Assembly (NCBI RefSeq): GCF_024054175.1
Contig: NZ_JAMXLA010000001.1
Span: forward strand, 1,234,528-1,298,527
Direction: 5' to 3'
DNA: 64,000 nucleotides
Origin: Flavobacterium sp. NRK1
GTDB taxonomy: Bacteria > Bacteroidota > Bacteroidia > Flavobacteriales > Flavobacteriaceae
The position numbers were made by a program, and so were the translations under genes. Of this stretch, positions 41,853 to 52,304 are shown piece after piece; within the stretch, counting starts at the first letter, position 1; each line of letters opens with the position of its first letter. The notes under the pieces are model-generated. The model searched no databases. It saw nothing but the letters and a program-made list of their open reading frames with translations, and was not told the origin of the DNA.

Positions 41853-43538
41853 TTATTCTTTGCTCTCAAGTTTAGCCCAGGTATCTCTAAGACCAACAGT
41901 TTTGTTAAAAACTATTTTTTCGGCATTGGTATCCGGGTCAACACAAAAATAGCCTAACCTCTGAAATTGGTAACGCTCTCCGGCTTCTGCACTTTTAAGG
42001 CTTGGCTCCAGATAGCCTTTTATAATTTCAAGCGATTTTGGATTTATATACTCTTTAAAATCAATATCTTTATCTGCATCAGGAGCTTCGTGAGTAAATA
42101 AACGGTCGTATATTCTCACTTCGGCTTCAATTGCATGTGGTATAGAAACCCAGTGAATTGTACCTTTTATTTTTCGCAAACTTGCTTCTGTACCACTACC
42201 ACTCTTACTATCAGTATCATACGTGCAGTGAATTTCGGTAATATTGCCGTCAGCATCTTTTACAACGCTCTCCCCTTTTATAATATATGCATTTTTAAGC
42301 CTTACTTCTTTACCAAGAGTTAAACGGAAATATTTACTGTTGGCACTTTCCATAAAGTCTTCTCTTTCAATATAAAGTTCTCTTGAAAAAGGTATTTCTC
42401 TAAATCCTGCAGTTTCATCTTCAGGATTATTTTCCGCTTCAAGCCATTCTTCTTTTCCTTCCGGATAATTAGTAATAACAAGCTTAACAGGATCTAAAAC
42501 AGCCATAACGCGGGGAGCAGTCTTATTAAGATCTTCTCTTACGCAAAACTCTAATAATGAAACATCTATTAAGTTTGTGCGCTTAGCAATACCAATAGTG
42601 TCTGCAAAATTGCGTATGGAAGCCGGTGTATAACCCCTTCTTCTCATACCGGATATTGTAGACATCCTTGGGTCATCCCAACCTTTAACATGCCCTTCCT
42701 GCACCAATTGTAAAAGTTTTCTTTTACTAACAACAGTATGGCTTAGGTTACGGCGGGCAAACTCGCGTTGCTTAGGCCTTACATTTCCTTCCGTGTAGAT
42801 CTGGTCCAGGAACCAGTCATATAGTTCCCTGTGCATAAGGAACTCAAGTGTACAAAGTGAATGAGAAATCTCTTCTACATAATCACTTTCTCCATGTGCC
42901 CAGTCATACATTGGATATATTTTCCATGCTTCCCCTGTACGGTGATGATGCTTGTGTAATATACGATACATAAGCGGATCGCGCATTAGCATATTGCTCG
43001 ATGCCATATCTATTTTAGCCCTTAAAACGTGAGTTCCCTCAGGAAATTCGCCGTTTTTCATCCTTTCAAAAAGGTCAAGGTTTTCTTCTACAGACCTGTT
43101 TCTGTATGGACTATCAGTACCCGGTTGAGATGGCGTACCTTTTTGTTTAGCCATGTCTTCACTACTTTGGCTGTCTACATAGGCTTTACCATTTTTAATA
43201 AACTGAACAGCCCAGTCATAAAGCTCCTGAAAATAGTCTGAAGCGTAACGCTCTTCTGCCCATTGGTATCCTAACCACTCCACGTCTTTTTTAATTGCAT
43301 CTACATATTCCTGCTCTTCTTTAGCAGGGTTAGTATCATCAAAACGTAAGTTTACAGGCGCATTATATCTAAGTCCTAATCCAAAATTAAGGCATATAGA
43401 ACTCGCATGGCCTATGTGCAGGTAACCATTAGGTTCCGGAGGAAAACGAAAACGTAGTTTGTCTTTTGCAAAACCTTTTCCTAAATCCTCTTCAATAATC
43501 TGCTCAATAAAATTAAGTGATCTTTCTTCAGTCGACAT
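41853..43538 (-). CDS. glnS: Glutamine--tRNA ligase
   Basis: A 561-residue class I aminoacyl-tRNA synthetase charging tRNA-Gln. The HIGH motif is in PPEPNGYLHIGHA (about residues 34-46), and the KMSKS motif is VVSKRKL (near 265). The two C-terminal beta-barrel anticodon domains are present. The ATG at 43538 (MSTEERSL) is preferred: the in-frame start at 43562 would lie within the -7 element and before the transcription start. Together with gltX it implies direct Gln-tRNA charging. Confidence 0.96.
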   Translation of the reverse strand: MSTEERSLNFIEQIIEEDLGKGFAKDKLRFRFPPEPNGYLHIGHASSICLNFGLGLRYNAPVNLRFDDTNPAKEEQEYVDAIKKDVEWLGYQWAEERYASDYFQELYDWAVQFIKNGKAYVDSQSSEDMAKQKGTPSQPGTDSPYRNRSVEENLDLFERMKNGEFPEGTHVLRAKIDMASSNMLMRDPLMYRILHKHHHRTGEAWKIYPMYDWAHGESDYVEEISHSLCTLEFLMHRELYDWFLDQIYTEGNVRPKQREFARRNLSHTVVSKRKLLQLVQEGHVKGWDDPRMSTISGMRRRGYTPASIRNFADTIGIAKRTNLIDVSLLEFCVREDLNKTAPRVMAVLDPVKLVITNYPEGKEEWLEAENNPEDETAGFREIPFSRELYIEREDFMESANSKYFRLTLGKEVRLKNAYIIKGESVVKDADGNITEIHCTYDTDSKSGSGTEASLRKIKGTIHWVSIPHAIEAEVRIYDRLFTHEAPDADKDIDFKEYINPKSLEIIKGYLEPSLKSAEAGERYQFQRLGYFCVDPDTNAEKIVFNKTVGLRDTWAKLESKE

Positions 43539-43559
43539 AGCTTTAAATAAATAAGATTG

Positions 43560-43567
43560 CAAAGGTA
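43560..43567 (-). promoter_or_regulatory. Predicted -7 element of glnS promoter
   Basis: Minus strand TACCTTTG, perfect TAnnTTTG, 21 nt before the chosen glnS ATG. It decides the start codon. Confidence 0.65.
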
Positions 43568-48619: not shown

Positions 48620-50800
48620 TTACTCGTTTTTTCTTAAATACTGAAAATCAAGCTGCTTTTTAACAAGATCTGCATTTTTTACTTTTACATAAACCTCGTC
48701 ACCCAGCTGAAGAAGATTATGAGTAACCTCTCCTACCAGTGCATATTGCTTTTCATCAAATGTGTAATAATCGTCTTTAATTTCACGGATACGACACATC
48801 CCTTCACATTTGTTAGATACTATTTCTACATAAATTCCCCATTCGGTAACGCCAGAAATAACACCTAAGAATTCTTCATCCTTATGGTCAAGCATATACT
48901 TAACCTGCATGTATTTTATACTGTCACGCTCTGCATTTGCAGCAAGGTTTTCCATATTGGATGAGTGCATACATTTTTCTTCATATACTTCTTCATCAAC
49001 TGATTTTCCTCCGTCAAGATAGTACTGAAGCAATCTATGTGCCATAACATCAGGATACCTTCTTATGGGCGATGTAAAATGCGAATAATAATCAAAAGCA
49101 AGGCCGTAATGCCCAATGTTATGGGTAGAATATTTAGCCTTACTCATACTTCTTATTGCCAGTGTATCAACAAGGTTTTGCTCTTTTTTACCCTGTACTT
49201 CAGACAATAGATTATTAAGTGATTTAGATACAGTAGCTTTACTTTTAAAATTAATGCTGTATCCAAATTTAGATATTATGGTTTGCAGGTTGATAAGTTT
49301 ATCTTCATCCGGTTCATCGTGAATCCTGTACACAAATGTTTTTTCCTGTTTACCTATAAATTCAGCTACTTTTCTGTTGGCAAGCAGCATAAATTCTTCA
49401 ATAAGATGATTAGCATCTTTAGCTACTTTAAAATAAACACCCGTAGGTTCTGCATTTTCATCAAGGTGGAATTTTACTTCTACCTTATCAAAAGAAATTG
49501 CACCGTTAGCCAGCCTTTTACGTCGTAATATTTTAGCCAGCTCATCCATTTTAAGCGTAGCTTCCCTAATATCTTCGCTTACAGTGTATTCTTCTCCTGT
49601 TAAAGAAATTTCTGCCGGAATTGTACTTCCTTTAGTTTCTATAATATGCTGTGCTTCTTCATAAGCAAACCGCTGATCGGAATAAATAACTGTACGTCCA
49701 AACCATTGGTTTACAACTTCTCCTTTGTTATTTAGCTGAAATACAGCCGAAAAAGTATATTTTTCTTCATGTGGTCTAAGCGAACATGCAAAGTTAGATA
49801 ATACTTCAGGCAGCATAGGTACTACCCTGTCTACCAGGTAAACAGATGTTGCACGGTTGTATGCTTCTTCATCCAGAATAGTTCCTTCCTTCAGGTAATA
49901 AGAAACATCAGCAATATGAATACCAATTTCATAATTACCATTATCAAGTTTTTCAAATGATAATGCATCATCAAAATCTTTAGCATCACGAGGGTCAATA
50001 GTAAAGGTTAATACATCACGCATATCCCTCCTATTTGCTATTTCCTCAGGCTGAATACTTGTATCCAGTTTTTGTGCAAACACTTCTACATCAACAGGAA
50101 AATCATAAGGCAGTCCGTATTCTGCAAGTATTGCGTGTATCTCTGTATTGTGTTCTCCCGGCTTACCTAAAACCTTTATTACCTCCCCGAAAGGACTATC
50201 GGCTTTAGCAGGCCAGTCGTCTAATTTTACTAAAACAACATCACCGTTTTCTGCATTGCCTTCTTTACCTTTTGGTATAAAAATATCGGTATACATTTTA
50301 GGATTAGCTGTAGATACAAAAGAGAAATTCTTTTGAATATCTATAACACCAACAAATTCTGTTTTTGCCCTTTCTAAAATTTCAACAACCTCTCCTTCCG
50401 GCTTCCTGCCTCTTCTTCTGTTGTATATATATACTTTAACCTTATCTTTATCAAGTGCTTTGTTAAGATTATTGGTAGGTATAAATATATCATCTTCTAG
50501 TTCAGGAGAAACAAAATAAGCTGTTTTCCTGCTTGTCATATCAATTATTCCCTCTACATAGTCAGCTTTGGCCAATACTCTGTATTTCCCTCTTTCAGTT
50601 TCTTCAATTTTTTCCTGAGATGCCAAAATCTTGAGTTCTTTAATGATCTCATTTCTGCTTTTAGTATCATTCAGTTCAAGTACAGCAGCTATCTGCTTGT
50701 AATTAAAAGATTTATTAGGGTCTTTTGCGAGTATCTTATAAATTCTTCTGGAAAAATCCTTTTCCTTTTTTTCTGACGGTCTTCCGTTCCTTTTACTCAT
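48620..50800 (-). CDS. rnr: Ribonuclease R
   Basis: A 726-residue 3'-5' exoribonuclease of the RNB family that degrades structured RNA. An N-terminal basic helix-turn-helix region (about 1-70) is followed by cold-shock domains and the RNB catalytic core. The acidic motif TIDPRDAKDFDDALS (about 268-282) holds the metal-binding aspartates. A C-terminal S1 domain (about 640-720) ends the protein. The length fits RNase R rather than RNase II. It is the last gene before the polarity switch at about 50.9 kb. Confidence 0.97.
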   Translation of the reverse strand: MSKRNGRPSEKKEKDFSRRIYKILAKDPNKSFNYKQIAAVLELNDTKSRNEIIKELKILASQEKIEETERGKYRVLAKADYVEGIIDMTSRKTAYFVSPELEDDIFIPTNNLNKALDKDKVKVYIYNRRRGRKPEGEVVEILERAKTEFVGVIDIQKNFSFVSTANPKMYTDIFIPKGKEGNAENGDVVLVKLDDWPAKADSPFGEVIKVLGKPGEHNTEIHAILAEYGLPYDFPVDVEVFAQKLDTSIQPEEIANRRDMRDVLTFTIDPRDAKDFDDALSFEKLDNGNYEIGIHIADVSYYLKEGTILDEEAYNRATSVYLVDRVVPMLPEVLSNFACSLRPHEEKYTFSAVFQLNNKGEVVNQWFGRTVIYSDQRFAYEEAQHIIETKGSTIPAEISLTGEEYTVSEDIREATLKMDELAKILRRKRLANGAISFDKVEVKFHLDENAEPTGVYFKVAKDANHLIEEFMLLANRKVAEFIGKQEKTFVYRIHDEPDEDKLINLQTIISKFGYSINFKSKATVSKSLNNLLSEVQGKKEQNLVDTLAIRSMSKAKYSTHNIGHYGLAFDYYSHFTSPIRRYPDVMAHRLLQYYLDGGKSVDEEVYEEKCMHSSNMENLAANAERDSIKYMQVKYMLDHKDEEFLGVISGVTEWGIYVEIVSNKCEGMCRIREIKDDYYTFDEKQYALVGEVTHNLLQLGDEVYVKVKNADLVKKQLDFQYLRKNE

Positions 50801-50919: not shown

Positions 50920-51159
50920 ATGGAACACTTTATAACCGCTGCAGTATTTAATTATCCGCACGAAATAACCATTTTAAAGCATCTTTTGCAGGACGAAGGT
51001 ATTCAGTACTATTTTGAGAACGAAACCATGGCAGACTTGCTCCCTATGTATTCTTACGCACTGGGAGGCATCAAACTTAAAGTACATCCTCACGATCTGG
51101 AAATCGTAAAAGAAATTCTGAGTAAACTTGACACCGATAATCATTTAAAAATAGTTTAA
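50920..51159 (+). CDS. DUF2007 domain protein (putative signal-transducing protein)
   Basis: A 79-residue protein of the DUF2007 type: HEITILKHLLQDEGIQYYFENE followed by the GGIKLKVHPHDLEIVKEIL second half, a ferredoxin-like fold of the kind also found in PII-like families. Function unknown. It is the first rightward gene after rnr and borders the long AT-rich non-coding segment. Confidence 0.8.
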   Translation: MEHFITAAVFNYPHEITILKHLLQDEGIQYYFENETMADLLPMYSYALGGIKLKVHPHDLEIVKEILSKLDTDNHLKIV

Positions 51160-51875
51160 CCAAAAAAGGTTTTCAACACTTATTAAAAACAACAAAAAAG
51201 AAGATTTTTAAAATTTAAATTTTTGATGATTATTATTGCTTGTTAATAATGCCAATAACTTTTTTTAAAGGCGACTACTTTTAGAGTTATACAATTTTAT
51301 ACACTGCTATAAACAATGTTAAGGAATTGTAAAATTTTATAAATCAGATACTTTACAAATTTTTGGTATTAGTTATTAACAATGGTTAATTCAATATTTT
51401 TAAGGTGTTTTATTAATAAGTTTCATTGTTAATTGTTGTTAATAACTCTTCTTAATGTTTTCATAACATTTGGTAAAAAAGTAAAAAATAAATTTGGATT
51501 TTTAAGTTACGATTTTGATTAATAAAAATTTCCTTTACTTCTCAAAAATCTTCTCTTTTTTCATTTATAGTTATTAACAAATACTGTTAATTTTCAACTC
51601 CCTTTAAACACAGTACTTTACAAATATTATTAACATTGTTGTTTTTTAACAATTTTAGTTCTATATTATTTGTGCCAAAAAAGCCTAATCAACTGGTTTT
51701 TAAGTACTCAAATAATTTATACTTTTAAGCATTACCAAATGGTTAATTGTACCTTTATTACCATATACAAAAGTAAAGCAGCAGATTTATAAAATAATAA
51801 TTTTAAACAATTGTGTTTGTTTTTAACTGGGTACATGGCATTTATTTATAATTTTACAGTCTTAAATTTTTATAC
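51160..51875. other. Candidate chromosomal replication origin (oriC)
   Basis: A 716-bp AT-rich segment without genes. Seven copies of TTWTNAACA, one base from the DnaA box TTWTNCACA, occur at 51170-51178 (+), 51241-51249 (-), 51373-51381 (+), 51437-51445 (-), 51571-51579 (+), 51627-51635 (+) and 51643-51651 (+). TTATACACT, at 51297-51305, is one base off the classical box. An eighth copy is at 52370. An especially AT-rich tract lies at 51481-51565. Gene polarity switches here. This is an inference: no dnaA gene is in the window, and canonical DnaA boxes are lacking. Confidence 0.55.
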
Positions 51876-52304
51876 ATGAAAATATCTATCGGAAACGACC
51901 ATGCAGGGCCGGACTATAAAAAAGCTATTGTAAAATATCTTGAAGATAAAGGCATAGAAGTGATAAACCACGGAACAGAGACTTTTGACAGTGTTGATTA
52001 TCCTGATTTTGTTCATCCGGTGGCTAACGATGTAGAAAATGGTATTGCAGATTTTGGCATTATTATCTGCGGAAGCGGAAATGGTGTAGCAATGTCAGTT
52101 AACAAACACCAGAAAATAAGGGCTGCACTATGCTGGATAAAAGAAATCGCGGCGCTGGCGCGCCAACACAATGATGCTAACATAATAAGTATTCCGGCGC
52201 GATACACTTCTATACAACAGGCTATAGAAATGGTTGATACATTTTTAAATACACCATTTGAAGGTGGAAGGCACCAAAACAGGGTAAACAAGATTCCGTG
52301 TTAA
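51876..52304 (+). CDS. rpiB: Ribose 5-phosphate isomerase B
   Basis: A 142-residue RpiB/LacAB family enzyme that interconverts ribose 5-phosphate and ribulose 5-phosphate. GNDHAGPDYK lies at residues 6-15. Catalytic Cys65 in CGSGNGVAM is present, which separates RpiB from allose-type variants. RHQNRVNKI closes the active site at the C-terminus. Length is normal. It is followed by a strong terminator. Confidence 0.95.
   Translation: MKISIGNDHAGPDYKKAIVKYLEDKGIEVINHGTETFDSVDYPDFVHPVANDVENGIADFGIIICGSGNGVAMSVNKHQKIRAALCWIKEIAALARQHNDANIISIPARYTSIQQAIEMVDTFLNTPFEGGRHQNRVNKIPC

Follow-up and report, generated by a model that had tools for sequence, protein, structure and literature searches.

The usual DnaA box is TTWTNCACA, and lineage-specific departures from this form have been described. 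According to the accessible part of a study of Epsilonproteobacteria, DnaA boxes in this group have the core TTCAC and the helix-5 residues of DnaA are changed; the lineage-specific box is tentatively tied there, in another class than that of the genome considered here, to residues 435 and 438–439 (PMC5043019). The same study gives DnaA residues 399, 423, 432–435, and 438–439 as base-contact positions. Other species-specific boxes, as quoted in an excerpt of a further paper, are TTTTCCACA in Cyanobacteria and AAACCTACCACC in Thermotoga (PMC10225481).

For Bacteroidetes, the accessible part of a paper on Prevotella intermedia, citing DoriC, places oriC remote from dnaA (PMC4755523), and the Elizabethkingia origin is likewise counted, in the part available, among Bacteroidetes origins far from dnaA (PMC8994065). 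An origin remote from dnaA is thus a trait already known for the phylum. As excerpted, both studies ran Ori-Finder with the box of E. coli, allowing a single mismatch at most, and no variant box is reported in these excerpts (PMC4755523, PMC8994065). Within Flavobacterium, the origin of F. enshiense was put at 'gltX', where the skew turns, in an account whose available part describes no boxes (PMC9867689), whereas mnmG is given as origin marker in the excerpt of another Flavobacteriaceae paper (PMC12843772). No report of an AACA variant box was found in the literature on Flavobacterium or Bacteroidetes origins, in a search that drew partly on excerpts and to which DoriC and most subscription papers were external; a search for the exact 9-mer returned no title concerning DnaA boxes.

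Here, we analyzed a stretch of 64,000 nucleotides from Flavobacterium sp. NRK1 (hereafter the window; G000:C1:1234528-1298527). Contig C1 holds 3,617,149 of the 3,632,747 bases of this genome (G000) and is therefore nearly the whole genome. By RpiB, the closest named relatives are Flavobacterium beibuense and F. rakeshii (96–97% identity). A first-pass annotation of the window had proposed a candidate oriC with a variant DnaA box, TTWTNAACA, in the spacer upstream of rpiB, which measures 716 bp (51160–51875) and is 79% A+T. The gene rpiB was found to mark the origin in most Flavobacteriaceae seen. To the left of the spacer, glnS (41853–43562) lies at about 8 kb and mnmG at about 18 kb. Because glnS is a relative of gltX, the partly available account of the F. 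enshiense origin at 'gltX' possibly refers to the same neighborhood as this spacer. The features of the locus are as follows (positions in the window).

48620–50800, minus strand: rnr (ribonuclease R), left flank; RNB domain PF00773, E 2.2e-112; transcribed away from the origin
50920–51159, plus strand: open reading frame of 79 amino acids in the interval between rnr and the spacer, read from the sequence; points towards the spacer
51160–51875, no strand: putative oriC, from the GC-skew switch, the box cluster, and conservation upstream of rpiB
51170–51178, plus strand: variant DnaA box TTTTCAACA; 97 observed vs. 16.5 expected in 85 spacers
51210–51223, no strand: AT-rich stretch AAAATTTAAATTTT, candidate DNA-unwinding element, from the sequence; across 107 upstream regions, the 13 bases ahead of the anchor have the majority consensus AAATTTAAATTTA
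51224–51249, plus strand: conserved core element, TGATGATTATTAT, four-nucleotide gap TGCT, and inverted box TGTTAATAA; in 107 of 153 upstream regions
51241–51249, minus strand: variant DnaA box TTATTAACA, the core box; sequence match
51373–51381, plus strand: variant DnaA box TTATTAACA; sequence match
51437–51445, minus strand: variant DnaA box TTATTAACA; sequence match
51571–51579, plus strand: variant DnaA box TTATTAACA; sequence match
51627–51635, plus strand: variant DnaA box TTATTAACA; sequence match
51643–51651, plus strand: TTTTTAACA, weak or chance box; 26 observed vs. 30.8 expected in 85 spacers, not enriched
51801–51809, plus strand: TTTTAAACA, weak or chance box; sequence match
51876–52304, plus strand: rpiB, right flank; PF02502, E 4.6e-57; transcribed away from the origin

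The 79-residue frame has no Pfam match at 1e-5. In one relative (G022), visual inspection of the sequence upstream of rpiB and the origin showed a C-terminus resembling that of this frame. This frame also bears on the initial statement that both genes flanking the spacer point away from it, which holds for rnr and rpiB and fails for the frame itself, which separates rnr from the spacer and points inward. The switch in gene polarity described at the same time was recovered in its direction and not in its counts: among hand-picked, non-overlapping open reading frames of at least 100 amino acids, 32 of 41 run leftward on the left side and 10 of 10 rightward on the right side.

A recount agreed with the seven TTWTNAACA sites originally noticed within 482 bp (51170–51651), five of which are exact TTATTAACA, and the spacer holds an eighth site, TTTTAAACA, at 51801–51809. 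Elsewhere in the window, five further exact copies of TTATTAACA were counted (24485, 36754, 36847, 39825, and 52370) instead of the four first given. In simulated spacers of order-1, -2, and -3 Markov models, TTWTNAACA occurred 1.04, 1.10, and 1.55 times on average, and eight or more sites were reached in none of 2000 simulations of each order. The corresponding means for TTATTAACA were 0.12, 0.18, and 0.33 against five observed, a number again reached in 0 of 2000. TTWTNCACA, with C at position 6, is absent from the 716-bp spacer and present five times across the window. Genome-wide, 125 copies of TTATTAACA and 145 of the reversed control word were found, that is, no enrichment; it is the local cluster, not the genome-wide frequency, that makes TTATTAACA stand out.

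GC skew, named as a check of the candidate origin, switches at the spacer, and the cumulative minimum of the window lies at 51768. Along C1, 20 stretches of 20 kb were sampled: all nine before 1.282 Mb have negative skew (−0.012 to −0.114) and all eight from 1.290 to 2.66 Mb positive skew (+0.014 to +0.131), so that the sign turns between 1.282 and 1.290 Mb. Farther from the origin the values are −0.082 at 2.88 Mb, −0.008 at 3.14 Mb, and +0.007 at 3.40 Mb, and the terminus side is blurred by this weak and mixed skew. As first remarked, no dnaA gene is near: dnaA lies at C1:2214674-2216068, 0.93 Mb off, and is therefore not adjacent to the putative origin in this genome. A TTATTAACA and a TTGTTAACA site were seen about 400–500 bp upstream of dnaA (L039, about C1:2216500-2216591), which are possibly autoregulation sites or matches by chance.

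We then considered the same locus in relatives. The named loci number 76, that is, 80 minus four extra copies in one F. paronense assembly (L080, L083, L085, and L086), which were left out of the spacer sets and of the relatives' skew and residue counts. In this assembly the rpiB origin region occurs four more times, on three small contigs (15–20 kb), besides the chromosome contig, owing to either origin-proximal over-coverage or an assembly artefact. A divergent rnr lies upstream of rpiB in 71 of the 76 named loci, and, of the 54 that have at least 5 kb on each side, 48 show a change from negative to positive skew at the rnr–rpiB spacer. When 20 kb were scanned in each of six complete Flavobacteriaceae genomes, the best AACA cluster in 600 bp lay upstream of rpiB in all six, including three whose rnr is not adjacent to rpiB; in G040 the last AACA site of the best cluster falls inside rpiB. 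A local skew minimum lies at most 1 kb upstream of rpiB in two of these six genomes (G142 and G125).

Spacers were compared in 85 loci (71 named and 14 others, the window's own included) kept from 106, 21 having been dropped for want of a divergent rnr upstream. TTWTNAACA was observed 352 times in them vs. 110.8 expected, TTWTNCACA 24 times vs. 20.4, TTWTNGACA 12 times vs. 10.1, and TTWTNTACA 110 times vs. 58.5, so that T at base 6 is raised too; these counts are not independent because the loci are related. Words in excess over an order-3 model include TTGTTAACA, TTATTAACA, TTATCAACA, TTTTCAACA, CTATTAACA, and TTGTCAACA, the counts of TTGTTAACA being partly double since it overlaps its own complement (the palindrome TTGTTAACAA). 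A single-substitution scan of TTATTAACA in the same spacers revealed a shape like that of a DnaA box, with strong preferences for A or G at base 3, T at 4, T, C, or G at 5, and A, C, and A at 7–9, whereas C or A at base 1 and some A at base 2 were tolerated. At base 6, observed and expected counts were 103 and 15 for A, 32 and 9 for T, 7 and 2 for C, and 2 and 1 for G. The 9-mers are thus conserved in relatives, the boxes being kept upstream of rpiB, and together with the skew switch at the spacer this supports the reading of the locus as a candidate oriC. The stretch is very probably the site where copying of the Flavobacterium chromosome starts.

Upstream of rpiB in relatives, mostly 400–700 bp from this gene, we found a core element composed of an AT-rich part (majority consensus AAATTTAAATTTA), TGATGGTTATTAT, four bases that are mostly AGCG, and the inverted box TGTTAATA; the corresponding region of the window, including its AT-rich stretch, is 51210–51249. 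The search used a 13-base anchor with at most three mismatches, a four-base gap, and a loose box whose base 6 was left free. It was positive in 107 of the 153 upstream regions, compared with 3 of 153 when the reverse strand was searched and 1 of 153 when order-2 simulations served as control. The positives comprise 68 of the 76 named loci and 39 of 55 further Flavobacteriaceae, and the element was found in 0 of 22 genomes outside this family. The core box has A at base 6 in 103 of the 107 regions and C in the other four, namely those of G021, G096, and G117, which have Ala435 in DnaA (E. coli numbering), and of G198, which has Ser435.

DnaA of the window's genome (P0004) matches TIGR00362 with 499 bits, and its Pfam domains were found, domain IV included. 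It keeps R399, D433, and H434 (E. coli numbering). At E. coli position 435, residue 444 of P0004, it has Ala. Its further residues are Ala423, Ile429, Asp431, and Leu438, where most other Bacteroidota read have Lys423, Phe429, Gly431, Ser or Thr435, and Ile438. Domain IV was compared for 102 genomes, in which residue 435 is Ala in 83, Ser in 16, and Thr in 3; the 75 Flavobacteriaceae among them have 72 Ala and 3 Ser. Ala435 also occurs in genomes of the families f6, f7, f40, f46, f54, f58, and f69, and f58 has Ser435 too (G404).

To relate this residue to the boxes, we used the 55 Flavobacteriaceae for which both DnaA and the region preceding rpiB (700 bp at most) were known; G055, whose contig ends at rpiB, and G058, which has no rpiB match, were left out despite having DnaA. 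In the 52 genomes with Ala435, AACA boxes outnumber CACA boxes in 46, equal them in 6, and are fewer in none; four of the six ties (G023, G024, G107, and G128) have neither AACA nor CACA boxes upstream of rpiB. The three genomes with Ser435 have 0 AACA and 6 CACA boxes (G198), 1 and 6 (G089), and 3 and 3 (G022), or, pooled, 4 AACA boxes vs. 2.0 expected and 15 CACA boxes vs. 1.1. Three or more CACA boxes are present in 3 of 3 Ser435 genomes and 2 of 52 Ala435 genomes, the exceptions being G008 and G010 with three each (Fisher's P = 0.0004, uncorrected for kinship). By eye, the box at the core place has C at base 6 in all three Ser435 genomes (TTATACACG in G198, TTATCCACA and CTATTCACA in the others), and the TTATTAT part was not recognizable at the core place of G089 and G022. 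In G022, two of the three AACA hits upstream of rpiB (L397) are the two strands of one palindrome. The change of one fixed letter of the box seems to accompany a single amino acid change in DnaA, and this association between box base 6 and residue 435 is new here. Residues 423, 429, 431, and 438 vary along with 435, so that the determinant cannot be narrowed down to this position. The DnaA of G022 combines Ser435 with the other tabulated residues of its Ala435 relatives, and this genome is possibly an intermediate of a specificity switch.

In a domain-IV tree with column 435 masked and few columns, seven changes of the Ser/Thr vs. Ala label were counted, at least three of which are supported by starred branches. 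The Ser435 members of the family fall inside the Ala435 group, G198 apart from G089 and G022 and beside a long branch that the program flagged as doubtful. Such a placement implies that more than one return to Ser is possible.

For genomes outside the family, the predictions were fixed beforehand: CACA origin boxes in G178 (Thr435) and G240 (Ser435), and AACA boxes in G395 (Ala435). In G178, a region of about 520 bp (3710944–3711467) has six TTDTNCACA and two TTDTNAACA sites, one of the latter being the complement of an overlapping CACA site. This fits the prediction, with the reserve that the skew is weak throughout and the local cumulative minimum is 5 kb from the cluster. G240 has five exact TTATCCACA in 170 bp (L290, G240:C1:1941001-1941168), adjoining the apparent end of an AraC-type gene as read by eye, and 88 copies genome-wide vs. 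20 of the reversed word. No skew switch was found at this cluster (1.941 Mb), which could serve to titrate DnaA or could be the true origin of a genome that has been rearranged. G395, with 66% GC, has no box cluster at its skew turn (3.52 Mb); two AACA boxes and one CACA box lie upstream of its rpiB, 0.5 Mb from the turn, and TTWTNAACA occurs 50 times genome-wide vs. 11 for the reversed word.

Further genomes were looked at after the predictions. G343 (f58, Ala435) was picked because its cluster was visible, site positions being listed for two of eight genomes, G343 and G014; it has four AACA and no CACA boxes in 573 bp (1012650–1013222), within a stretch where the contig skew turns from negative to positive, and two CACA sites (1006350 and 1006836) at a local skew minimum 6 kb to the left of the AACA cluster. 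It agrees in part with the residue-435 rule. G326 (f69, Ala435) agrees with the rule by its boxes upstream of rpiB, six AACA and two CACA. In G404 (Ser435, complete genome), the sampled skew is too noisy to place the origin. Twelve of the 22 genomes outside the family have no AACA or CACA box upstream of rpiB, their origin being probably elsewhere.

Two lines of evidence were rejected. Genome-wide counts of a word against its reversed form were dropped as evidence of box choice because they contradict the local pattern in G198, a Ser435 genome in which TTATCAACA occurs 92 times vs. 27 for the reversed word; such counts may reflect codon use. An apparent strand bias of the listed sites of G014 beyond 0.48 Mb was set aside too, since the density of the listed sites is halved, suggesting a listing artefact.

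Based on these analyses, we consider it highly probable that the rnr–rpiB spacer is oriC and carries a lineage-specific box, with A at base 6, that is read by a DnaA with a changed recognition helix. DnaA made from a gene 0.93 Mb away would bind the cluster of variant boxes, TTRTYAACA, in which base 6 is A and not C. Its assembly would start from the core inverted box at 51241, the neighboring AT-rich DNA would be opened, and two forks would then depart in opposite directions. The departure of the box from TTWTNCACA would come from the changed recognition helix of DnaA in this lineage, above all from Ala in place of E. coli Thr435, the residue that we infer to be the cause of the change.

The first-pass annotation had left a choice between a lineage-specific DnaA box and the site of a different initiator. 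We favor the former because base 6 is the only place where the 9-mer departs from the pattern of a DnaA box, and this base varies with a DnaA residue that contacts bases. Both observations weigh against an origin in which the AACA 9-mers serve another initiation factor or a nucleoid protein while DnaA uses weak canonical sites, and so does the canonical-like box at the core place of G198. On the other hand, there is a mild excess of canonical boxes in the pooled Ala435 regions upstream of rpiB (CACA 24 vs. 9.1 expected), where GACA is raised as much (15 vs. 5.8), TACA occurs 31 times vs. 26.6, and AACA reaches 196 vs. 47.1. On balance, another factor is an unlikely reader of these sites.

Equally unlikely, in our judgment, is an origin whose base 6 has merely drifted in AT-rich DNA toward low-affinity boxes under an unchanged DnaA specificity. 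Upstream regions are AT-rich, a few C6 boxes are kept in Ala435 regions, and T at base 6 is raised as well, all of which drift would allow; however, the regions of the three Ser435 genomes are as AT-rich as those with Ala435 (GC 0.22–0.24) and yet have three to six CACA boxes, AACA boxes are 3- to 4-fold above the Markov expectation, and the core box has A at base 6 almost throughout (103 of 107). That the spacer is no origin at all, and instead a regulatory region shared by rnr and rpiB with operator repeats and a skew switch nearby by chance, would suit its place between divergent genes but is highly improbable, as the spacer coincides with the switch, 48 of 54 relatives have the switch at the same position, and genomes in which rnr is not adjacent still have the cluster by rpiB.

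Beyond the reading of the spacer as an oriC with a lineage-specific box, the chances appear evenly balanced for a wider one, a repeated and reversible change of initiator specificity, in which replacement of Thr or Ser by Ala at position 435 of the recognition helix makes DnaA prefer A instead of C at base 6, and the origin boxes change accordingly. It would apply to Flavobacteriaceae and possibly to other families that have Ala435 (f58 and f69 agree in part); G089 and G198 would have gone back to Ser435 and C6 boxes, and G022 would possibly be half-way. A change of the DnaA box is hard to explain, because it involves an essential initiator with essential sites, many of which have to change at once; Flavobacteriaceae show both states of the box at a single conserved locus, perhaps with an intermediate. 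There is also a practical side. An origin finder based on TTATCCACA with one mismatch catches TTATCAACA and misses TTATTAACA, which has two mismatches, and hence Flavobacteriaceae origins may score low or be misplaced. A better origin rule, also for choosing the start point of a genome, is rpiB together with TTRTYAACA.

As to known systems, the AT-rich tract and TTATTAT beside the inverted box resemble the junction of the unwinding element and R1 in E. coli and, in part, BUS, the orientation of the core element having been compared with the B. subtilis arrangement. In the accessible parts of the papers concerned, BUS calls for three or more NAN triplets no farther than 16 bp from a DnaA box (PMC8287927, PMC10721633). 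Read by eye, the window is partly like the BUS, or DnaA-trio, described there, in that a repeated trinucleotide lies a short spacer away from the box (GAT GAT TAT TAT, with a four-nucleotide gap), but the trinucleotide nearest the box differs from the consensus 3'-GAT-5', and relatives mostly have GAT GGT TAT TAT, also read by eye, in which the run is broken.

The canonical oriC of E. coli, as far as the available part of its description goes (PMC5742627), has TTATNCACA boxes; both origins have a cluster of 9-mers in both orientations and AT-rich DNA, and the two DnaA proteins share R399, D433, and H434, whereas the window's boxes have A at base 6 and its DnaA has Ala435. The boxes of Cyanobacteria and Thermotoga, as excerpted, are changed at positions other than base 6 (PMC10225481). 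In the accessible account of Epsilonproteobacteria (PMC5043019), the likeness lies in a lineage-specific box and a tentative link to residue 435; there, base 5 (T) is newly required and base 6 stays C, whereas here it is base 6 that changes, together with residue 435 and within one family.
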